A stretch of DNA of 64,000 bases from Isoetes taiwanensis (Eukaryota; Streptophyta; Lycopodiopsida; Isoetales; Isoetaceae). The stretch is taken from the NCBI GenBank assembly GCA_021234155.1, contig JAJEKV010000100.1:842116-906115 (forward strand), read 5' to 3'. Below are positions 18,229 through 50,497 of this stretch, in pieces; the stretch's first letter is position 1; the number at the start of each line of letters is the position of its first letter. The position numbers were made by a program, and so were the translations under genes. A model generated the notes under the pieces. It ran no database searches and had not been told where the DNA came from. It was given only the letters and a program-made list of their open reading frames with translations.

Positions 18229-20586
18229 AACTAAGCCTGAATGTCCTGCGACCTATCCCTACAGCGAAAATGATCCCCAAACCTGGCCAAGATGCTGCCG
18301 AATCTGGCCGAGGTCCTGCTAGTCCTGCCGATCAAATGTAATAGAGCCCCTTCGGGCCTAAGAAGATGCATCCGACGAGTTTGCCGCAACAGATAGCTCA
18401 ACCGACTGTAGGAAAAAACATAGGTTTAAAAAAAAAACCTATGTACCTCAAGGCAGTGCCAAGCAGAGCTCAAGAGCTATGCCACCGCCATAGCAAGAAA
18501 GAGAAACACGGCCGTCGCCATCCGGATCTGCCATAGCCGAGTTGCGAAAGGCACGGCAGAGAATTTTTAGAGTTTTCTAATTTCCCTGGTCGTACGATTC
18601 GAAATTAGAGAATCGGACGGCTCAAATTGATTTTGGGTGACGTGGCACGACACGTGGCATAGCTAGAATTGCAGCCTTTTGTGCAGGGGGGGTTAGGCAA
18701 CCCTGCTAAAGACATTGAGGGAATCCAGGGCCAGTGTGCCATAATCCCTCCTCCCAATCCCAAAAATCAGGACCGCCATTCTGCCCATCCAACTCCCCCT
18801 CCTTCAAAAAAAAAAAAAAACAAGGTCTTTGCGCAAGACGGGGGTTGCCCTCCGGTGCCCGAAAGTGTGTTTTCATGGGTTCTGTTTCGTCATTTTGTGT
18901 TGTGTCTTGTTTGTTTGTTTGTTTGTTTGTTTCCATATTCTACAAGACATCTATGAACTCAAAATTCTCAATCCCTCAATTTCATAAATTCCTAGCAGAA
19001 ACTTCATCATTCCTACAACTAATGTCATAAGTTTTCACCGTAGGAGGTTGAGCCCTGCCATAATATCAATGTAACAGTTTTGGGCACATCACTGTATTGT
19101 ACCTTCTCAACCCTCATAGTCTTGGAACTCTTTTGGTCCTTTGTAGAGAGCTTTTGCACCTTCTTTAGGATTCGGTGAACTACAAATTTTCGATTTTGCA
19201 AGACCACTCGCATTTATATATTAACAAAGGGGCCTATTTTTGTACAAATGCAATGTAAGCTAGGTAAATGTTATTTGTTCCATCAAAAGAAATGTGAATT
19301 TAGGACCTTCTCTTTCGAGACCAATATTGTCAATGGAACTCTTCTTTTTTGCTTCTTGAATCTTCTACGTGATGGTCTTTTTTCCTAGCAGGGCTCCACT
19401 CCAAATGTGAATTTTGCTTCTTCTATGCATCTTGTTTCTAAATTTGTACCAACATTTTCAGATTTCTAAGATAAGACCTTGCCAAAAAGTGTACACATTT
19501 TTTTCGTAGAACTCTCTTCTTTGTTTTTTTACTTTGGCTGGGATACCTAGCTTCTATATAGAATATGCAAAAGTCCCATAGAGAACTTGTTCTTGTTGCT
19601 AAGTTGAATGTTTGCCACACTCAAATCATGACATATAAACTCTTTTTTGTCTATTCAGGCATCACTTGGATGATTTTCATAGTCACAAACCAGAAGTACT
19701 TAGATGGATGGCTCAAAACCCTCTATCTTCGTGTGGGAAGAAATATTATGCAGCCTTGTTGTAATATTCATAGCTAGGATTTCAAAATTCAACTTGAATA
19801 TTTGAACTTGTTTAGGTGTTGTTGCACGCCACCTGTAAATTTTTCTGAATTATGTTCCATATGTTCAACAAAGACTTGCACGATGTAGAACAAAGGCAAA
19901 TGCATACAACCCAAGGCCACGTCATGGTAGGAGGAAAATTTTTCTCTTCAATTACTACTTTAGAAAATGTCTACCTCACCTAATGGTATGATTCTCTCAT
20001 GGTTTATGTCACTTATGACCAGCACCAATATTACTCTAACATTGACTGAAGACATGTTCCCATTTCAAATGCAAGGTTAATCTCATTTTTACTTTTTAAC
20101 AAATAAAATATGCCCTATTTTGTAGCTGACTTTTATAGATAGTGAGGCACAACTAATTTCTAAAATTGTCAACGTTAGACACAACAAAGCAATGCTCGCA
20201 ATTAGATACCGTAAAGCAATAAAGAAACTAAAAGAACAGATGGCCAAGCATTCCAAAAGTCTAGATTGTAAAGTCAAAGCTCTAGCAAAAGCTGGAATTG
20301 GTTTTCAAATAAGGTTAATAAAGCAGGAAACAAGCCTCGTTTATGTCATCTTAATCCCAGCGTAATTAAGGCTTGAACGTGCATTTAGTTATAATTTGAT
20401 GCAGCTTAGTATACCATGTTTGACCATATTTCGTTGTACTTGGTAGGAATAATTGTTAGAGGAACTGATATTTAATAGATGATAGACACCATCATGCTCA
20501 TGCTGCCTTTTGAACGTGAAAATGGCCGTTATATAATTTTAAATCCAGCTGTAACGAGGATTATCATGTAAAGGTTCTACTATAAA
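18229..20586. other. Intergenic with hairpin and dispersed motifs
   Basis: A perfect hairpin (ACATAGGTTT arms, A-rich loop) lies at 18418-18444. A motif around 18845-18880 (TGTGTTTTCATGGG, revcomp CATGAAAACACACT) recurs near 25718. A G-run/GGCAACCCTGC segment at 18686-18705 recurs at about 57825-57855. An (A)n run and (GTTT)n run lie at 18806-18820 and 18909-18930. Open frames here show no domain. Confidence 0.45.
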
Positions 20587-21150
20587 TTGGCAGATTCAAG
20601 TTCTAAATGGTCAAGCAAGAATGGGCCAACAATGCATGGGGATCCTATAGTTTCATGCATATGGCTCATTGCAAAAGCATCTGTAACTACATTGCAAGGT
20701 CAAGATGAAAAAGCTCTGCAAGCATTTCTGCGTGAAATTACGCTGCCATCTAGCTCTTCAGTTCAAGGCTGGGTCAGGGATGCTAATCCCAGTTGCAACT
20801 GGACTGGTATCCAATGCAATTCAGATGGCAGAATTACTGCTCTCAACTTGACAGGCCTTGGCATTTCAGGCCAAATTCCTGCAGAGCTCTCAAACTGCAC
20901 AGCTTTGGCCACATTAGATTTGTCTGGAAATCATCTCTCTGGCTCAATCCCTTCATCTCTTGGATCACTTACCAATCTTCAGTTTCTGCATCTGGGTTTT
21001 AATAATCTCTCAGGGACCATTCCATCAACTTTTGGTTTCTTGTCTAATATACAATACATGTTCTTGGGCCAGAACTATCTTACAGGTTCTATTCCAGTCT
21101 CTCTTTCCAACTGCACCAAGATAGTTAATCTTGGTCTCTATAAAAACTAG
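20587..21150 (+). pseudogene. LRR receptor-like protein, N-terminal fragment
   Basis: Plant extracellular LRR ectodomain. The first ATG in frame is 20632. The protein shows an LRRNT_2 cap (DEKALQAFLREI, with GW and CNWTGIQC) and then plant-type LRRs of 24 residues, LxxLxLSGNxLSGSIPxxLG (for example LATLDLSGNHLSGSIPSSLG). It stops after NLGLYKN at 21150, where the sequence switches to unrelated DNA. No transmembrane or kinase part is present. A matching downstream LRR segment lies at 30784-31390, so this is probably the front half of a disrupted gene. Confidence 0.75.
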
Positions 21151-30783: not shown

Positions 30784-31390
30784 CCATAGATATCCTTGGG
30801 GGACCTATTCCCCCAGAATTTGACAGGTTAACCATGATAGAAAATATCAGTCTTTATGATAACCATCTCCTGGTCCAATTCCTACAAGCATGTTGGTAAA
30901 TTGCAAGAGACTTGCTGGCATGTATTTGGCCTACAATTATCTGTCAGGTTCCATTCCTGCAGAGATTGGAGGCCTGACAGAGCTCGAGCAGCTATGGTTG
31001 AATGTAAACAACCTCACTGGACATATACCAGAAGAGATTGGCAATTTATCCAAGTTGATTATTCTAGATATTTCACACAATGGATTGACTGGACAAATAC
31101 CAAGATCATTGGATGGGCTTGTGAATTTGAGCTGGGCACTTGTTTTAAATGAAAATTTCTTACAGGCGGGTTTCCAGTGGAACTTACAAGACTAATCAAT
31201 GTGCAATTCCTATGGTTGCATGACAACATGCTAACAGGTCCAAATCCTGCTGAAATAGGGGGGATGAACAAGATGAAATCTCTTCAGCTAGGATCGAATT
31301 TTTTCACAGGCCAGATTCCTACTGAGCTTTTTAATTGCACATCCATTAAAAGTTTGCTTTTGGAAAAAAATAAGCTGGGGTATCACAGCA
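30784..31390 (+). pseudogene. LRR receptor-like protein, central fragment
   Basis: Plant LRRs of 24 residues: LGGPIPPEFDRLTMIENISL, then CKRLAGMYLAYNYLSGSIPA, EIGGLTELEQLWLNVNNLTG, EIGNLSKLIILDISHNGLTG, FLWLHDNMLTG and SLQLGSNFFTGQIPTELFNC. Frameshifts occur near 30890 and 31165, and the text ends after LEKNKLGYHS. The spacing and the first repeat would continue naturally from the fragment ending at 21150. No kinase or transmembrane part is present. Confidence 0.75.
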
Positions 31391-32461
31391 TGCTAACATG
31401 AAAATCTCGCATGATATATTATCTCTTTCTCCTACGGGGAAGACATTAAATCTCTTTACATACATCTGTGACCATTTCATTATCTTCAGCACCACTTCTC
31501 CAATTTCTTTACTTCGCAGTGCCATTCCTCCAATATAATGGGCACATGAGCCCATAATTTAGAACTATAACGTTTATACATTTAAACTCACGCTGAAAAC
31601 AATACAACAGCAGCTTCTCACGAGAGACAAACCTGCAGATTGTTAGTCGCAGTAGACTGATCCCTGAGTGGTGAATCCATGACTATGAAGTTTTGCTTGG
31701 CCCATTGAATAAAAATTCCTGTCCCCACAGCAAGAATGCATTGGGTTTACATGTGAATCCTTTGTCAAATGCTGCAAAATATGCGCACATATCTTTAAGC
31801 AATGCTATAGTTCCTTCTGCAATGCCAGATTTCTTCAAATAATCTGCATGGCATGTCTAGTTGCTAGTGTAGATGGAGATTTTCGTCCATTTAAAACAGT
31901 CAATAATACAACAAGCCTTGCAACCAATCTCTTACACATACTATCTAAAGAGGTAGGAAAGTAACTTACATATAAAGAAATGCATATTTCTGTGATTTTA
32001 CCGCATCAATGCTGCAGTTTGAAGCAGGTATATGTTCTGAAAGACAAGCCACCTGATCTTCTCAAAGACCATGGACTTCTGCACTAAAACCTCAACCTGC
32101 AGAGGATAGTCACAGGAGCTCTAAGATGTTATCTATCAGAGTAAATTGCAAAACAGCCAAGATAAGTGAATATACCTGATTACGCTTCTTTGGGATAATA
32201 TGAATGAAACAAAGGATTTACAGAAGAAAACGCAATGCCAAATACAGTCCCGAAGATAAATAAAAATAAGGGAAGTGCCGGAGTTGGGAAGCTCCAAATC
32301 TTTCATTAACTGCAGAAGCTCCAATTATAAGGGCCGGAAATGCAAGAATCGGACCAACATTTGAGCGACATCCATCAATGCTGCAGCCTCGAGCAAGGAG
32401 CGAGCACCGGTTTCCCGGTTTCCACAGTTCCTCTCCAGCAACAGGGGCAACCGAGCATTTC
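31391..32461. other. Intergenic; possible coding scrap
   Basis: Antisense text GPILAFPALIIGASAVNERF near 32250-32350 looks like a hydrophobic protein segment and lies just beyond repeat copy C, as the gene fragments do beside copies A and B. I cannot identify it. Confidence 0.3.
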
Positions 32462-32595
32462 CTATGATGGGTTTTTAGCAGTCATTGGCATATTCTGGGT
32501 ATATATTGGCATATACCTAGAATATGCCACAAACCCACCTCAACAAGGGCTTGCCCCCTTAGGGGCAACCCAAAGAAAAAATAAAACACCAAGAC
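32462..32595 (-). repeat. Short dispersed repeat, copy C, inverted
   Basis: On the minus strand it reads TTGGGTTGCCCCTAAGG, GGTGGGTTTGTGGCATATTC, the palindrome-rich ATATGCC core, then AATGACTGCT. The block order is the same as in copies A and B. Confidence 0.65.
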
Positions 32596-32677
32596 ATTCC
32601 AAAAACGCAAACGAATTAGGTTCTACGGGCAGATTTCGGCAGCGAGATTGAGGGAGCAGGTGGCACACCAATTAGGA

Positions 32678-32738
32678 ATGGCCCGAATTGGATTCTTTTC
32701 CCGCCGAATCCTTCCTGCTCCAACTCTTAGGCGCTCAG
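32678..32738 (+). other. Possible first exon with presequence-like peptide
   Basis: ATG at 32678 gives MARIGFFSRRILPAPTLRRS, followed by CAG|GTAAGT. The peptide is basic, without acidic residues, like a mitochondrial targeting sequence. No following exon was found before the hAT repeat, so this is tentative. Confidence 0.25.
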
Positions 32739-33106
32739 GTAAGTCTTCACTGTGTTCTTTTCCAAAAAAAAAAAAACAGTTTCCTCGTTCTACAATCTGA
32801 TTTCTAGCATTCATTTCGTTTTTGGATTGACTGTTCCTATTCTTGCATAACGACCCCCCCTTTCAAAATTGTTATACCAATCATCTCTTGCTTCTGTGCA
32901 TCCATCTTTGAAGATTACTGCCTATGAAGCTAAGATTATCAGGACTTTCATTTTGTTATTGGCTTTCCACATAGAAGCCAGGATTTCTACATCTTTCTTT
33001 TTGCCTTAATGCTGTGCAGCTGCTTACTGGCAGTATTTAAATACCTTGTGTTAAAAAAATCAGATGAATTCCCTCCATGACCTCAAGGTCCTAAGGGGCA
33101 TGATAA

Positions 33107-33134
33107 TAAATATTATTATTATTATTATTATTAT
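33107..33134. repeat. (ATT)n microsatellite
   Basis: Pure ATT/TTA trinucleotide run, followed by a partial duplication containing CGTTCTCTTATTATGTTA. Confidence 0.85.
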
Positions 33135-33305
33135 GTGTCGTTCTCAAAAGTCGTTCTCTTATTATGTTATGTGCCGTTCTCTTATTATGTTACATAATAC
33201 AGATCAGATGAAATGGGAAAGAAGGGGCCAGAATGGGATCATGTCATTGTTGGGAAAAAGCTTAGTAGAGGAGTATTTCTAGTGAAATGCAAGTATTGTG
33301 ATCAT

Positions 33306-33337
33306 CCATACTCAGCAATTCGAATTGCTGAGTATGG
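33306..33337. repeat. 32-bp perfect palindrome inside hAT BED region
   Basis: CCATACTCAGCAATTC followed directly by its reverse complement. The right arm lacks the second half, so 16 bp were added as an inverted copy of the preceding 16 bp. Confidence 0.9.
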
Positions 33338-35113
33338 CACAAAGGATCAGGGCACATCTAATTGGAATAAGAGGACTTGGAGTTGGTCCTAAGAAAAAAC
33401 CTTCTACTAGTAATGGAGGTTGCAAGAAAGTGCCAGTAGAAGTATACAATGCAATGGCTAGATGTGCAGAAGCAGCTATAATTCGTGAGGAGTAATTAAC
33501 TAATCGTGAGGATGATGTTGTTGATTTGGATAATGAAGTCATTAACCTTGCAAATGAATCACAAGAAACCATGATGACATTGGCATAAAAGAATTCTAAT
33601 AAAAAGAGGAGAGCGGAGGACAAGGCTGAAGGTGGAGGACCTTTAGTGAGATTGTTGAGACGTACACGAAGAAATGCAGCTGATAGAGCTTTAAGAAAAT
33701 GGTTTTACACATGCGCAATTCCGTATAATGCTACAAATAACAAGTGGTACAAGATGGCATTGAAGGAAATCACAAAGGCAGGTGAAGGATATGTCCCGCT
33801 ACGTTACAATGACTTGAGAGGATCATATCTAACGAAGGAGTATAAAGCACTTCAGGTAATTAGTTCACTAATTTGTTCTTTCATAAGTTTGCTTGATGTA
33901 GTCGTTTTGATTTTTGATGTTTATCTTGTGCTACTGGGTAGGAAACATTGAAGCCACTTCAAAAGGCATGGCCAAAGTATGGAGTTTCAGTATGCAGTGA
34001 TGGATGGTCTGACACTAAAAAAAGGCCAATCATAAATTTTATGGCATCTTCTTGCATGGGAACGGTATTTCTAAATCTGTGGATACTAGCGGGATAAAAA
34101 AAACTGGTGATTATTTGTATTTGGAGATCAAGAAAGTAATAGAAGAGATTGGGTCTGAAAACGTTGCTCAGGTATGCACGAACATGTTTTTCTTCTTTGA
34201 AATTTTTGATTTTTTGTATTATTTCTGATTTATTGATTATTTTGCACTTGTACCTTCCCAATAAATTCTGATTTTTGTCTTTCCAATTATGCGTGTTGAT
34301 GATTTCTGATCTTTAATGATTATATTGTATTTCATAGGTGATCATGGACAATGCATCCAATGTTGTTAAGGCAGGAGAAATGATTGAGAGGGACTATCCA
34401 AAAATATTTTTCATAAGGTGTGCTTGTCATTGTTTGGATTTGCTCTTTGAAGACATAGGACAATCAGATTGGGTGCAACCTGTAATTCGAGATGCTGAAA
34501 AGATTGTTACTTTCCTTACATGCAAAGAGTCTGGAATTTCTCCATTTGCTAAGTTTTGCAAGAAGTCAATGGTAAGGCCTGCAAACACAAGATTTGCTTA
34601 CAGTTTATCGTCTTGAGTCAAATTTCAAGTAAAGAATTTGAAAGTGCTTTGTTGCGCATGGTCATGAGTCATGAATGGAAGAAATGGAAGCATTCTAAAT
34701 CTCCTAAAGGTCAGATTGTATACGATATTAAGAAGTGATGCATTCTTCAGGAATGCCAAAGAGATTTGCTATGTCGTTGCTCCTATTTTGAAAATGCTCA
34801 GGGCTGTAGATAGAGAAGGTCCTACAATGGGATTGGTTTATGAGCTGATGGACACAATGAATGAAGCATTAAGGTCTATGAAAAAGGATATTCAAGAGTG
34901 GAAGATTGATGCTATAGAGAAGCTGATTATGTTGGAGGATGATGAGGGTGCGTGGAGTGGTATGTGGTCCATGTTGCATTCGCCATTACATGCTGTGGGC
35001 CTCTTGTTGCATCCACTATATAGAGATGAAAAGCATGAAGATAGATTGGATGATGACGAAATAATGCAAGGATGGAGAACATTCCTGTCGACGTATGATT
35101 CATTTATAAGAAA

Positions 35114-35268
35114 TTTGTCTTCTATTTCAGATTTGTTTTATATTTCAGATTTGTTCTCTATTTCAGATTTGTTTTCTATTTCAGATTATGTTTTAAAGCA
35201 CTTTGTTTTCTATTTCAGATTTGTTTTATATTTCAGATTTGTTTTCTATTTTAACTTGTTTATTTTTA
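35114..35268 (+). repeat. Tandem acceptor-like repeats in hAT intron
   Basis: Repeated unit TTCTATTTCAGATTTGTT (with TA/CT variants) occurs about six times, ending at a normal-looking acceptor TTTATTTTTAG before the next coding block. The counterpart in the right arm is about 36040-36190. Confidence 0.7.
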
Positions 35269-35437
35269 GGTACTGTAATGGTGATGAAGATCTTGAAGAT
35301 AGATTAACCCAACAACTCCAGAAGTTCCGCAATCCTTCGCATGAATTAAGTAGCTTGTCCCCTAGCTCTTCAGATGCATTACGAAGGCATAATATGTTGA
35401 AGGCAATGCTTATGGTAGTAGTCTTCCTGATTTAAAG

Positions 35438-35845
35438 CACTAATAAGGGAAACACACGAAGAAGAGGTTAAGGAGGAAAGGGATGGGGAAGAAAGTTCAG
35501 AGCTAGAAACATCTTCTGAACATAGTGACAATGATGAGGATGATTGTCCAGAATCTGCTGACAATGTCGAAGAAGACATTGGCCTTATTGTGGAGCTTTA
35601 GTATTTAGAAGCATTTGGGAAATTCTGAAATTTCTAGATGTTTGACATGTTTGTAATCTCTTTAAACTTCCAAGACTTTAACACATGTTTGTAGTCTCTT
35701 ATATTTCTGAAATCTTTGGATCTTTTTCATGTTTATGAGCTCTTTAAAATTCTGAAATTCTGAATATATGAAGTATTTTTTGTATATGCTTAATAGCAGA
35801 TGCAAACAAGACGTTTGCACATTTGATGCAAACGTTTGCAACCTT
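35438..35845. other. Spacer between inverted hAT arms
   Basis: About 410 bp that forms the loop of the inverted repeat. The left part encodes the acidic C-terminal tail of the left copy (to 35601), and the rest is AT-rich. Confidence 0.65.
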
Positions 35846-38196
35846 CTTTAAATCAGGAAGACTACTACCATAAGAATCCCACCACGAGACTGCCTTCAAC
35901 ATATTATGCCTTCGTAATGCACCTGAAGAGCTAGTGGACAAGCTACTTAATTCATGCGAAGGATTGCGGAACTTCTGGAGTTGTTGGGTTAGTCTATCTT
36001 CAAGATCTTCATCACCATTACAGTACCTAAAAATAAAGAAGTTAAAATAGAAAACAAATCTGAAATATAAAACAAATCTGAAATAGAAAACAAAGTGCTT
36101 TAAAACATAATCTGAAATAGAAAACAAATCTGAAATAGAGAACAAATCTGAAATATAAAACAAATCTGAAATAGAAGACAAATTTCTTATAAATGAATCA
36201 TACGTCGACAGGAATGTTCTCCATCCTTGCATTATTTTGTCATCATCCAATATATCTTCATCCTTTTCATCTCTATATAGTGGATGCAACAAGAGGCCCA
36301 CAGCATGCAAATGGCGAATGCAACATGGACCACCTACCACTCCACGCACCCTCATCATCCTCCAACATAATCAGCTTCTCTATAGCATCAATCTTCCACT
36401 CTTGAATATCCTTTTTCATAGACCTTAATGCTTCATTCATTGTGTCCATCAACTCATAAACCAATCCCATTGTAGCACCTTCTCTATCTACAGCCCTGAG
36501 CATTTTCAAAATAGGAGAAACAACATAGAAAATCTCTTTGGCATTCCTGAAGAATGCATCACTTCTTATAATATCGTATACAATCTGACCTTTAGGAGAT
36601 TTAGAATGCTTCCATTTCTTCCATTCAGGACTCATGACCATGCGCAGCAAAGCGCTTTCAAAATCTTCACTTGAAATTTAACTCAAGACGATAAACATGT
36701 AGCAAATCTTATCTTTGTAGGCTTTACCATTGACTTCTTGCAAAACTTAGTAAATAGAGAAATTCCAGACTCCTTGAGTGTAAGGAAAGTAACAATCTTT
36801 TCAGCATCTCGAATTACAGGTTGCACCCAATCTAATTGTCCTATGTCTTCAAAGAGCAAATCCAAACAATGACAAGCACACCTTATGAAAAATATTTTTG
36901 GATAGTCCCTCTCAATCATTTCTCCTGCCTTAACAGCATTGGATGCATTGTCCATGATCACCTATGAAATACAATATAATCATTAAAAATCAGAAATCAT
37001 CAACATGCATAATTGGAAAGACAAAAATCAGAATTTATTGGGAAGGTACAAATGCAAAATAATCAATAAATAAAAAATAATACAAAAAATCAGAAATTTC
37101 AAAGAAGAAAAACATGTTCCTGCATACCTGAGCAACGTTTTCAGGCCCAATCTCTTCTATTACTTTCTTGACTTTCAAATACAAATAATCACCAGTTTTT
37201 TTTATCCCGCTAGTGTCCACAGATTTAGAAATACCGTTCCCATGCAAGAAGATGCCATAAAATTTATGATTGGCCTTTTCCTAGTGTCGGACCATCCATC
37301 ACTGCATACTGAAACTCCATACTTTGGCCATGCCTTTTGAAGTGGCTTCAATGTTTCCTACACAGTAGCACAAGATAAACATAAAAAATCAAAACGACTA
37401 CATCAAGCAAACTTATGAAAGAACAAATTAGTGAACTAATTACCTGAAGTTCTTTATACTCCTTCGTTAGATGTGATCCTCTCAAGTCATTATAACTTAG
37501 CGGGACATATCCTTCACTTGCCTTTGTGATTTCCTTCAATGCCATCTTGTACCACTTGTTATTTGTAGCATTATACGGAATTGCGCATGCGTAAAACCAT
37601 TTTCTTAAAGCTCTATCAGCTGCATTTCTTCGTGTATGTCTCAACAATCTCACTAAAGGTCCTCCACCTTCAGCCTTGTCCTCCGCTCTCCTCTTTTTAT
37701 TAGAATTCTTTTATGCCAATGTCATCATGGTTTCTTGTGATTCATTTGCAAGGTTAATGACTTCATTCTCCAACTCAACAACATCATCCTCACGATTAGT
37801 TAATTGCTCCTCACGAATTACAGCTGCTTCTGCACATCCAGCCATTGCATTGTATACTTCTACTGGCACTTTCTTGCAACCTCCATTACTAGTAGAAGTT
37901 TTTTTCTTAGGACCAACTCCAAGTCCTCTTATTCCAATTAGATGTGCCATGATTCTTTGTGGAATTGATGAGTATGGATGATCACAATACTTGCATTTCA
38001 CCAGAAATACTCCTCTACCAAGCTTTTTCCCAACAATGACATCATTCCATTCTGGCCCCTTCCTTCCCATCTCATCTAAAAGGGAATAGAAAAAGGCAGG
38101 AAAAAGGAGAAGGGGAGGGGGTGACAGAGAAGGGTTTGAAGCGCCAAGGATTTGAAGTGATAGGATTTGTTTTAAGAACAATGCAAATTGTTTCAA
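35744..38196 (-). pseudogene. hAT transposase pseudogene, right copy
   Basis: Same domain order as the left copy, on the minus strand: MGRKGPEWNDVIVGKKLGRG, CKYCDHPYSS (BED finger), GGCKKVPVEVYNAM, ALRKWFYACAIPYNATNNKW, IMDNASNAVKAGEMIERDYP, CACHCLDLLFEDIG, and near the end SWWDSYGSSLPDLKKVA, the conserved hAT C-terminal start. TAA at 37711-37713 is shared with the left arm. A frame break near 36690 is also shared. A separate 1-bp insertion lies near 36310. Text after LPDLKKVA is not hAT-like, so the true C-terminus is missing. Confidence 0.78.
35846..38077 (-). mobile_element. hAT element, right arm of large inverted repeat
   Basis: Reverse-complement partner of 33206-35437. The two 3' ends face each other (tail to tail). 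Within the block 36683-36961 the encoded 92 residues differ from the left copy at roughly ten positions, so the copies are clearly diverged. Confidence 0.8.
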
Positions 38197-38199
38197 GAA

Positions 38200-39639
38200 T
38201 TTGAATTTGTTTCAAATAAATCTATTTCCTGCATCTATTTCAAGATTCATTACAAATCTGTCAGCAAAATGAATTTGCTTGCTGCAGTTGCCGAAGCCCA
38301 AATCCACCAAATACAGTCGCGGGTGCTTCCGAATGAAGAAGCACCAAATAAAACTGGTGACATAGCCAAATTCGGCATCTAAAACTCCATAATACAATCT
38401 GCATGATTCCGAAATAAAAAAGTTCATTAAACTTCTTTTAGAATAAAAAAGCTTCAAATAAGGCTTTTTTTATGTGAAGGCTTTGATTCAAATTTTGTGG
38501 ATGGCTTAGAATCAATAGAAAGACACGGAACCATCCTTAAACTAGCAAGAGAAATGCAGCAGCCTACATACCTTTTAATATGCAGCTGCTGCATCTGCCC
38601 AAAATCTTGCTCAAAATTCGAGCCTCGAAGAAACTTTTTTCAAATTTTAAGAGTGAGAGAAAAACTGAGAAAAAATTTGTGTATTAATGCACGCGAGTGT
38701 TTGTACATGGGTAGATTTTGTTGCAGACACGGATGTGTAGACGGAGAGAGTGCAATGATTCAAAAAGTTGAAAGAAAAAGCTTAGTTTCAATAAACTATT
38801 TTAAGGTTGAAAGGAAACTAAATATAGTTTTAGAGAAAACTGAATATAGTTTCTTCTAAAACTTTATATAGTTTCTAGATTGAAACTACAGTTAGTTTTT
38901 TTTTTTCTTGAAGGAATAACCCCAATCGAGCATAGATAAAGTGATCGATAGTGAAGGGTCACTTTAATAGCTCGAGGATTTGAAGACTATATTTATAGTA
39001 CACTCATTTTTTTTGTAGAACTTCCAACTTTGACATAAATGTGCCATAATTTCAAATGGCCACAATACCAAGTTGATGCTAAGTTTTGGAGACAAATATT
39101 TGTTAAAGATAAAGATGACATGGTATATCTTCCAAAAAACGTGAACTAGAAATATGTGAAACACATACCTAAGGTGATTATTAAAACTCCATGGTGTTTG
39201 ACAAGACTAAAATTGAAAAGAGGTCTAAATTTGCGCCAAGTGCCCAGTGTGGTATTTGGCAACTTATAATCAAAGGTGAACCAAAGGTGTTGAGCTCTAC
39301 TTTAGCAAGTTCCATCCAGATTTATCTTAGTATTCTGCTCATAAGTTAGTCAAACGCATAGATCTTGCCTTCATTAATGTCAAAAAGTTAAACCCACGCT
39401 ATTATAGGGTTCATACAATATATGGTATTCTCAAACCATCTGTTTTAACATTGTGAAGGGAAAATGTCACATGCCAAGTGGAAATGACACGTATAAGAAG
39501 CAAGACTTCCAAGTTTTCACTACCATCTCAATGGGGAATCATGTCTTAAATACTCATAAGGCAAATATCAAGTCTGTTATATTTTGGATTTTCAACCAAA
39601 AAAAGTCCAAGTTACTATGCATATACTCCATTATCACAT
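38200..39639. other. Intergenic, no supported gene
   Basis: Repeated motifs TATAGTTT and AAACTA occur near 38800-38900. No gene or known element is recognised. Confidence 0.5.
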
Positions 39640-41960: not shown

Positions 41961-42013
41961 CAACCAGCTCTTGATCTTTTAGGGTTCAGTTCTAAAAGTA
42001 AACAAATACAAAC

Positions 42014-44212
42014 GTGTGGAACTATAACTATGTGCGGCCCATCACCTTATTGTCATCCGTATATAAGATCTTCGCCAAGGCTTTTGCAGAGCGGGTAAAG
42101 GACATCTTGGCAGAGTCCATCTCAACAACCCAGTCAGGTTTTCTTCCAAAACGGTGCATTTTGAATAATGTTGCTGCTGCTTACGAGGGAATTTATTGGG
42201 CACGTAGGCAAAACCTTCCAGTTGTATACCTTAAGCTTGATTTTGCAAAAGCTTATGACAGTGTCAGATGGGAATTCATGCGTCGTTGTATGATAAGATT
42301 GGGATTTGGGGAACAATTCACATTAGATATTATGAAGCTGCATATCTCTGCTCGGGCGACTGTCCTGTTCCATGGTGAGCCGTCACATGCCTTTTCACTC
42401 GGTCGTGGTATTCGTCAGGGATGCCCTTTAGCACCATTGCTTTTCACAATTGTTGCAGAGGCTTTGTCACAGTTATTCACCATTGCAACGACAGAGGGAC
42501 TTCTCCATGGTCTTGCAATGGAGGACGGCACCCAAGAGGTTTGCAATCAATATGCAGACGACACGTTCCTCTTCCTAGTCGCTAATGATGAGAATCTTGT
42601 TGCTGCCAAAATGCTTTTAGACACTTTTTCACTGGCTTCCGGTGTTCTTGTGGGGTGGCAGAAGTGTAAAGCTTTGTGGACATTGGATAATCCGTCTCCG
42701 ACATGTGTTCACGATTATCCATGGAAATTACTTGCGCATGGACAGGCCATCAAGTTGTTGGGGATTCCAGTTGGCATCCATGTTACTATGGGAGCTGCAT
42801 GGGAGGAGATCATTAGGGGTTTGGAGAAGCACTTATTCTGGTGGTCCACTGCTAAGTTGTCTCTTGCAGGTCGCATTACAGTGGCCAAGTCAGTCCTTAG
42901 TAGTACCCATGTTTATATGGCATCCTTACTGCTAGCACCACAGATCAAAGTGCGTGAGCTCATTGCAATAGTTCGGAACTTTATTTGGGCAGGTACTGAG
43001 GAAGGTGCTGTGGTCAAGGTGGCTTGGTCGAAGTGCATCCTTCCAAAATGGGCAGGTGGTCTGGGTATGATGGACTTCTTACTGCAGAGCAAAGTGCTTA
43101 TTTCAAAGTTCATTTGGAGACTCCTAAATGGTGAGGATGACTCTCCTGGTTCACGCCTTCTTAGACAAGCTCTTGGTCACTGTATCCCTCTAGGCAAGAA
43201 GGGTGTCAAACCAGTCCTACCTTGGGGTTTATTTCAGACTCTGCAGCCTTTTCCAAGTGCTTCTCCATTTTTGCGTGGCTTGTTGGCAGCATGGGAGGCA
43301 GTCAGACATCTTTTCTGGCCATGCCCCTCTATCCACACCCTATTGGAGACTCCATGGTGGTGGGCACCACTACCTCCAGACCCCTCAGCACCTCCATTGG
43401 CAGCCTCAGTTCATCCCCTTACACAGAGAAGGTGGGTTCTTGCAGGTGTTGTCTATATTCAAGCATTGTATGAGGAGGGCCGCCTACTATCTTGGCCTGA
43501 ATTTCAGACAAAGTTCCTGCTCTCTCGTTGGGATGTATCTCTATGGGAGAAGGTCGCAGAAAATTTGCCTCTCATAGTGCAAGTTGGTGCTGCTGAAAGG
43601 GTACCATAGGACTGTCATAAAAATATTCACAAAGGCAAGCAATTTGTCAGATCAGTATATCGCCTTCTTTTAGCACCACAACCCCTCCAGTTGCCAGATG
43701 GGTGGCACCTACATGTTCCACAGCCCACTTTGTGTCGTACATGGCGATGGCTTTGGGATAGGTTGCTCCACCCTAAAGTCTCTGTACTATGGTGGCAGGT
43801 TATCCACAGGTGCCTGCGGGTTAATGCCTTTCGACATCGCTATGATCCTCGCATATCTGCAGTATGCCCGCTCTGCCTCTCGGACGTTGAGACTCTTGAG
43901 CATTGTCTCTTTGATTGTCCTGAGGTTCAACCGGCGTGGTCCTGGCTACAAGGTTTGTTTAACAGTACATTGGACTGCCGATGCATCCTTTTGGCGTCCT
44001 ATCCCAATGCATGGCCTCCAGCTAAACAAAGGGCATTTCATCTTGGTTCCGGTTGGCTCCTATGGTCGATATGGGAGCGTCGCAGACACCACATCTTTCA
44101 GAGCATTTATTCATCTGCACACAGTGTTATTACAGTGGCCCAGAAAAAGATATTGACAGCCTACGAGTGTTCTTCCCTTGACTCAGAACTGGTGGAACGC
44201 ATCTGGATTTAG
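42014..44212 (+). pseudogene. L1-like LINE reverse transcriptase, one in-frame stop
   Basis: Non-LTR retrotransposon ORF2 without its endonuclease. RT blocks: RPITLLSSVYKIFAKAFAER, YLKLDFAKAYDSVRWEFM (motif A Asp), GRGIRQGCPLAPLLFTIVAE (motif B) and NQYADDTFLFL (catalytic YADD at 42551-42562). A thumb region and then the zf-RVT domain follow, with TWRWLWDRLLHPKVSVLWWQ and CPLCLSDVETLEHCLFDCPE. A single TAG at 43607-43609 interrupts the frame, which otherwise continues to 44212. Upstream of about 42000 the text stops, so the element is 5'-truncated. GCAGACAAC.AG occurs at about 41957 and again at 44408 and 44453, which may mark a target-site duplication. Confidence 0.85.
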
Positions 44213-49335: not shown

Positions 49336-49503
49336 TTGAAAAATCTTAGTGCATAGGCCATGTGAATTCATTGTCATGTAAAACATTGTGCAATTCCTTA
49401 TGCTTATGTTGTTTTATTTTGTGCAATCTACTTTGTTAAAGCTTCAATTGTATTCATGATCTTTTACTTTTCTTTATGGCGTTTTAGATTCCCAGAGATC
49501 CCC

Positions 49504-50497
49504 ATGGCTGGATTTGATGGTTTTGATGGTTTTTCCTACATGCCTCAAGGATACTCGTCCTTTCCTTATACCCAGGGCCTTGGGGAACCTGAATCTCAAG
49601 AAATACCTTCCTCTCAACCTATTCCGCCACTTCCAAATTATCCAGTCCATTTTTATGCATTTCCACGTGGTCCACTTGCAAGGAGATCTGCTATCCCTCC
49701 AATATATCCTTATCCTAGTCCTCCTATTATAACAGAGCCAAGTCAAAACATTGCTGAAATCGTTCCAGAGCCCAGTCTGAAAAAGAAACCTCGTGGAAGA
49801 AAAGCAAAGGAGCCTGCCAAAGCATCTGCTGGAGACGTGCAAAAAGGCAGAGGCACAAATTGGAAAGACAATTGGATGGTTGCTCTAATCCACTTACGTG
49901 GAGAAATGCACGAGGAATTTATTACTAAAGCTGGAAAGCGAGGTTTTGATATTTGGCAAAAATTGTATTTGCAGTTAGTGTCACGTTGCCTAGACTTGGA
50001 TAAAGATACTGAAGCATGCAGAAAGAAGTGGCAAGCAGTTTATGGAGACTATAGACATGATAAAGCACAAAATAATCTCTCTGGTGCAGAACAATTTGAG
50101 AAGTGTAGATGGTTTGATCTAATAGATCAATACATGAGTGAATGAACGTGCTCATGTTGTTTGTTATGCTCATGACAGCGCTATAGATGCTAATACACCC
50201 ATGGCAGAAAATACGAAGGAGGAGGACATTGTTGAGACAGAAGAAGTGGAGAGTACTAAGACATCCAATGACAAAGAGGATGGGGGAAAGAGGTTGACAC
50301 CTGATGAGAAAAGAACTGTAAATCCAAAGAAAAAGAAAAAGTCAAAAGGTGCAGCATCTGAGGTTGTTTTGGCTATCAAAAGAATGACTGAAATAAGCGA
50401 GAAGGCTCAAGATGATAACCTTGCTCTTGAGAAGGAAAAATTGAATATGTTGAAAGGGATATCTCAAAGTCTACAAGGCCTTTTTGAAAAACTGTAG
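49504..50497 (+). pseudogene. PIF/Harbinger Myb/SANT-like ORF1, frameshifted
   Basis: DNA-binding accessory protein of PIF/Harbinger elements. From ATG 49504: a Pro- and Gly-rich head (MAGFDGFDGF), a basic stretch KKKPRGRKAKEP, then a trihelix/Myb-like domain GTNWKDNWMVALIHLRGEMH ... CRKKWQAVYGDYRHDK ... CRWFDLIDQYMSE. A direct TGAATGAA at about 50138-50145 looks like a 4-bp duplication that ends the frame with TGA. The other frame continues with ERAHVVCYAHDSAIDANTPM to a Lys-rich, coiled-coil tail (LEKEKLNMLKGISQSLQGLF) and TAG at 50497. Residues 140-220 hold the DNA-binding part. No introns were seen. Confidence 0.75.

Follow-up and report, generated by a model that had tools for sequence, protein, structure and literature searches.

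A tail-to-tail inverted repeat in Isoetes taiwanensis, probably formed in place from one already dead hAT transposon copy

The locus reported here, a tail-to-tail inverted repeat of two hAT transposase copies in Isoetes taiwanensis, can be set beside several described systems. The maize Mu killer (Muk) is a partial inverted duplication of mudrA of about 1.3 kb for which silencing was shown genetically, and the study itself questions the long-hairpin model (PMC3440606). In soybean, GmIRCHS, which consists of inverted repeats of a pseudo-chalcone synthase gene, is a natural source of RNA silencing (PMC13051633), and transgene hairpins are described as tending towards self-silencing (PMC9263138). 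The present locus lies in a stretch of 64,000 nucleotides, termed the window (C909:842116-906115 in the 1.66-Gb assembly), the coordinates of which are used throughout, and was compared with 17 related hAT/DUF659 loci fetched from the same assembly (L001-L017); in all genome searches, scoring was confined to the best-ranked candidates.

Among transposons, double Ds of maize consists of an element sitting inside a second one, with termini and a target duplication. Internal deletions and filler arising by abortive gap repair are described for Ac/Ds and mariner (PMC5490172, which refers to Rubin and Levy 1997). No case of an inverted duplication of a hAT transposase was found in the open literature, which was searched by titles and abstract openings with the subscription literature outside the search.

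Like Mu killer, the window locus repeats part of a transposase gene in inverted orientation at a single place and derives from an internally deleted DNA transposon, but extends here over 2.2 kb. Mu killer derives from Mutator and has two copies of terminal repeat A as well as active targets, whereas the window locus derives from hAT, is known here from sequence alone, lacks terminal repeats and has no intact target that could be found. It resembles GmIRCHS in presenting a broken gene as an inverted repeat, tail to tail; the latter, however, is a host gene with a known silencing phenotype, whereas the window locus is a transposase with none known. The deletion at short direct repeats within a cut-and-paste transposon is like the products of abortive gap repair, of which L007 represents such a derivative, but the window locus exceeds a plain internal deletion, having a second copy in reverse orientation and having lost the termini at both ends. 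With double Ds it shares two hAT-type elements in opposite orientation, although the termini and target duplication of that structure are not present at the window junctions.

We consider it likely that one hAT copy, which by then had a premature stop and probably also a frameshift, was inversely duplicated once, in place, by template-switching repair, and that the product is a relic. An earlier examination of the letters of this stretch (the sequence-only reading) had described two facing hAT copies about 410 bp apart, and this holds in position and orientation, with two alignable arms and a spacer of 408 bp (Table 1). The two copies are not of equal standing, however, since only the left one has the 5' and 3' regions of the element. 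The alignment and dating of the arms that had been proposed gave 2215 aligned bases, comprising 2144 identities and 71 mismatches (46 transitions and 25 transversions), with 34 gap columns and a Kimura two-parameter (K2P) distance of 0.033. With about 1.3e-8, 6.5e-9 or 2e-9 substitutions per site per year as the rate, the divergence would correspond to about 1.3, 2.5 or 8 million years, a loose date, as these rates are literature values.

A DUF659 piece is present in the left and right arms (E 4.5e-15 and 2.4e-15, respectively) and in L002, and the hAT C-terminal dimerisation domain (Dimer_Tnp_hAT) is found in L002 and L005. The family terminal inverted repeat CATRGTTGGGAGCAAA stands at both ends of L007 and L009, the former with an exact 8-bp target-site duplication (GTCTGCTT) and the latter with no clear target duplication despite its terminal repeats. 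The combination of DUF659, dimerisation domain, terminal repeats and 8-bp target duplication thus identifies the source as a hAT element, and the locus is, judged by its similarities, of hAT (DUF659-type) transposon origin. The window copies themselves are without the family terminal repeat, a word for which the whole window gave no more than two scattered matches, each with one mismatch (8777 and 11771).

The lesion that best unites the arms is an identical TAA after MMTLA, as the sequence-only reading had noted. GAA occupies this site in all four relatives that cover it (L001, L002, L003 and L004), and an assembly search with the 24 bases around the TAA (<=2 mismatches) returned five places, with TAA only in the two arms and GAA in three. 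A missing G is likewise common to both arms, the base being present in L002 and L003. The frame break after RFA, cited earlier as a second identical lesion, was rejected as such. The arms have lost different bases, 4-5 apart, the left lacking the T of ACA[T]G and the right one T of GCTTACA, both of which are retained in L001 and L002; the frame of L002 is open through the site. A further stop is the left arm's own, with CAA at the matching place in the right arm. That assembly search found no additional copy with the TAA, and the situation that would have spoken for a mobile family, with lesions family-wide in copies having clean target duplications, is not the case for the TAA, which among the places found is confined to the two arms.

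Distances on 2083 trimmed columns amount to 70 differences in 2014 sites (3.5%) between the arms, 78 in 1955 (left) and 72 in 1970 (right) between arm and L002 (3.7-4.0%), and 93 in 1984 (left) and 92 in 1999 (right) between arm and L001. The tree groups the two arms as sisters (bootstrap 89), and four sites join them, compared with two and one for the two other pairings. On the present comparison the private TAA is the strongest single evidence that the arms would descend from one copy after it was damaged, and it carries most weight because the uniting branch is short and most topologies separating the arms are unrejected. The proposal that one already dead copy was inversely duplicated thus gains support from the private TAA, the sister position of the arms and their unique junctions.

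The anatomy of the two copies is asymmetric. The 5' region of the left copy is a probable non-coding first exon and first intron, and the family's outermost 5' end (about 85 bp in L009, which matches the window from its own position 86, at 32570-32626) is absent. The unrelated repeat that stands in its place has listed matches that mostly span query position 1 to about 375-393 (best 40 of 2971 candidates scored). At the other end, the last ~52 bp, including the terminal repeat, are missing from the left copy. Its internal deletion, at a 3-base microhomology (AAG), has removed about 277-280 bp as measured on L001 and L002, and with them most of the dimerisation domain, which is cut off in the right copy. 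The right copy is without 5' region, 3' region or terminal repeat, and begins with AGATGA at 38077, immediately ahead of the start codon, ending 9 bases past the start of the left deletion. Because both termini and most of the dimerisation domain are absent, the locus is incapable of moving or of making a working transposase.

Assembly searches allowing 2 mismatches for the deletion junction and 3 for the inversion junction found each of them once. On the sequence of the relatives, 9 bases separate the start of the left deletion from the right copy's inner end, and the right copy retains these 9 bases; it was therefore templated before or during their loss from the left copy, and the closeness of the two points suggests one event. 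Under the mechanism we favour, a break within or beside the element, perhaps after a failed excision, would have been followed by template-switching repair. Synthesis would have proceeded rightwards through the copy, skipping about 280 bp at the AAG microhomology, and onward into the 3' region, where a strand switch would have occurred at TGCAA. The coding part would then have been copied backwards until just before the start codon and joined to the present right flank, the arms drifting to 3.3% (K2P) after duplication. We infer a single repair event, this order of steps and a relic without present function, and the best reading is that the duplicated copy never transposed and that the locus formed in place.

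Table 1. Features of the inverted repeat and its immediate surroundings (window coordinates)
Feature	Position	Strand	Remarks
Abundant unrelated repeat, end portion	32200-32579		Occupies expected place of hAT 5' terminus; end approximate, matches stop at 32574-32592
Left copy, 5' region	32572-33205	+	92% to L001 over 32572-33007
Left arm, coding part of hAT including introns, with DUF659 piece	33206-35437	+	TAA 33586-33588; missing G 34072/34073; stop 33493-33495; one-base loss 34602/34603
Perfect 32-bp palindrome, left arm only	33306-33337		16-bp fold-back insertion
Left copy, 3' region, now loop	35438-35841	+	Follows deletion at 35437/35438
Inversion junction	35837-35845		5-bp microhomology TGCAA (35837-35841), then right-copy bases gone from left copy
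Right arm, backward coding part only	35846-38077	-	TAA 37711-37713; missing G 37226/37227; one-base loss 36701
Right flank	38078-38295		No match elsewhere found; old diverged repeat from about 38296

Two further changes in the left arm are a 13-bp loss near 35405 and a private insertion, the reverse complement of the preceding 16 bp, which creates the palindrome and represents a small-scale version of the same type of event. No palindrome of >100 bp links the two flanks outside the arms, and an Rfam scan of the window gave no match.

Several observations weigh against a single in-place duplication of a dead copy, support for which is only partial, one of the two lesions first cited being unshared and the arm distances lying near those of L002. 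Only a very short branch unites the arms (0.0019 compared with 0.0185 and 0.0177 for the tips), the difference between the arms is only slightly below their differences from L002, and the approximately unbiased (AU) test rejects just two of six topologies that separate the arms, retaining four. The missing G is less clearly private than the TAA, L001 too being one base short at this site; this shortfall would most simply be the loss of a different base, the alternative being a shared loss with two substitutions. One short stretch contains not only the two inner breakpoints of the window locus but also the internal breakpoint of L007; it may simply be break-prone or rich in microhomology with the element ends, which weakens the argument for a single event. 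The right outer breakpoint (38077/38078) has no known donor sequence, and the putative repair mechanism is deduced from the junctions alone.

Inverted repeats undergo gene conversion, which could have carried the TAA from one arm to the other once both existed. An element intact when it was duplicated, in which the TAA and missing G arose later in one arm and were then copied to the other, is on balance unlikely. Few changes unite the arms, as this alternative would expect, and the differences between them are borderline uneven in spacing relative to random placement, both in the longest identical run (200, P 0.049) and in spacing overall (P 0.050). Yet the differences are distributed over the four quarters of the arms as 18, 22, 25 and 12, with no strong clustering, and two lesions would require two conversion tracts. 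Duplication of a copy that was already dead is retained as our account of the shared lesions.

A separate matter is whether the duplicated dead copy has, or had, a role. The proposal is that the locus acts or acted in the manner of Mu killer, with read-through or convergent transcription yielding a hairpin and small interfering RNAs (siRNAs) that methylate and silence hAT relatives, thereby helping to end the activity of the family; we regard this as decidedly improbable. As anticipated from the sequence-only reading, strong folding would be expected of a transcript spanning the locus, the predicted fold of the inner 981 nucleotides having an energy of -543.7 kcal/mol compared with a mean of -216.1 for 20 shuffles. 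The arms have 1089 of the 2193 left-arm 21-mers in common, and of the 17 loci compared, L001, L002, L003, L004, L005, L006 and L008 also have 21-mers in common with them. The arms span transposase coding sequence, as does Mu killer (PMC3440606), and few close copies of the family remain, with four loci at >=80% identity besides the window among the best-scored candidates. The CpG observed/expected ratios of 0.43 and 0.39 in the arms, compared with 0.50 in the window, are compatible with past methylation, though not specific to it.

Set against this, all seven relatives with common 21-mers are broken or truncated. L001 and L002 have insertions and short frames, L003 has a long insert and a stop, and L004 has lost its DUF659 part; in the fetched parts of L005, L006 and L008 the initial 1.5 kb of the arm is unmatched, L005 keeping an open 344-codon C-terminal frame. 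No 21-mer is common to the arms and L007, L009-L011 or any of the six distant DUF659 relatives (L012-L017), and distant relatives with long open frames have 52-55% identity. An intact close relative that could serve as a silencing target was not found among the best-scored candidates in the assembly, and the decay of the family is just as expected without a silencer. Unlike Mu killer, the locus has no promoter-bearing terminal repeats, and a hairpin requires read-through because the element's own 3' region, the expected transcript end, lies in the loop. In the Mu killer study, moreover, silencing plants had short antisense transcripts and not the proposed long hairpin (PMC3440606). A regulatory (siRNA) role is therefore unlikely, and an ordinary relic is the most likely status of the locus. 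We give still less credence to the fuller version, in which an accidental inverted duplication of a dead copy would have become a natural hAT silencer, an siRNA source that ended the activity of its own family, and equally little to such a silencer being a hAT counterpart of Mu killer that would have originated by template switching and needed no promoter of its own element.

Returning to origins, it is very improbable that the two copies are separate insertions of one defective hAT lineage that was mobilised in trans and whose ends were lost later. Such a lineage would account for the lesions common to both copies, and deletion derivatives of the family did move, as L007 with its terminal repeats and exact 8-bp target duplication attests. 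The assembly search, however, found no third copy with the TAA, the right copy begins inside the coding part, stops short of the 3' region and is bordered by a terminus at neither end, and the inversion junction has microhomology instead of a terminal repeat. The earlier suggestion of a defective family moved with help is accordingly not supported, and an amplified defective family was rejected, the TAA word and both junctions being found only at the window locus. Two insertions, or the whole inverted repeat as a mobile unit, were also rejected, no terminal repeats or target duplication having been found; the longest words common to the flanks are 9 nucleotides (inverted) and 10 nucleotides (direct), compared with 8-12 and 8-13 in 20 shuffles. 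Insertion of one element into another was rejected on the inversion junction, which joins the 3' region to mid-coding sequence.

An assembly artefact, whether a fold-back read or a false join, is scarcely credible: inverted repeats are a known assembly risk, but the sequence read contains no N, and a fold-back read of a single copy would not give arms that are asymmetric and differ at 71 bases and by private indels.

Other rearrangements were observed among the relatives. L007 2465-3235 is a 771-bp non-autonomous hAT derivative, the 3' 754 bp of which are 97% identical to L002. In L003 (1-1714) and L004 (6005-8236), 1.1 kb of the element 3' part is duplicated in tandem, each unit in L004 ending with a terminal-repeat word. 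Insertions of about 470 bp in L001 (5891-6360) and 700 bp in L002 (5800-6505) differ from each other but interrupt the sequence at almost the same codon position (window 33728-33744), near which the large deletion of L004 also starts. The related hAT remnants L006 (C920:2175094-2182838) and L005 (C920:2558741-2560048), ~380 kb apart, appear to reflect a segmental duplication, as suggested by the identical flank adjoining the 3' terminal repeat in both. Elsewhere in the window, pieces of a leucine-rich repeat (LRR) receptor-type gene lie on the + strand at 20572-21150 and 30863-31401, ~10 kb apart and ending ~1.8 kb upstream of the inverted repeat; none of the kinase motif matches in the window is convincing, these amounting to two isolated DFGLA matches, with HRD and APE motifs not found. 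Reverse transcriptase frames of the long interspersed nuclear element (LINE) type (RVT_1, zf-RVT) and a Myb/SANT-like frame are located at 42002-44212 and 49366-50145.

The inverted repeat is real and well preserved, and was most probably made at its present site by duplication of one dead hAT copy. If it is silent, its asymmetric anatomy, microhomology junctions and private common lesion allow a clean reading of how a long inverted repeat can form from a transposon relic in the absence of transposition. If it were true that the locus makes siRNAs, natural transposon killers would include a second kind in addition to Mu killer, and the locus would inform the question of how frequently transposon families are silenced by chance inverted duplication as opposed to gradual decay.

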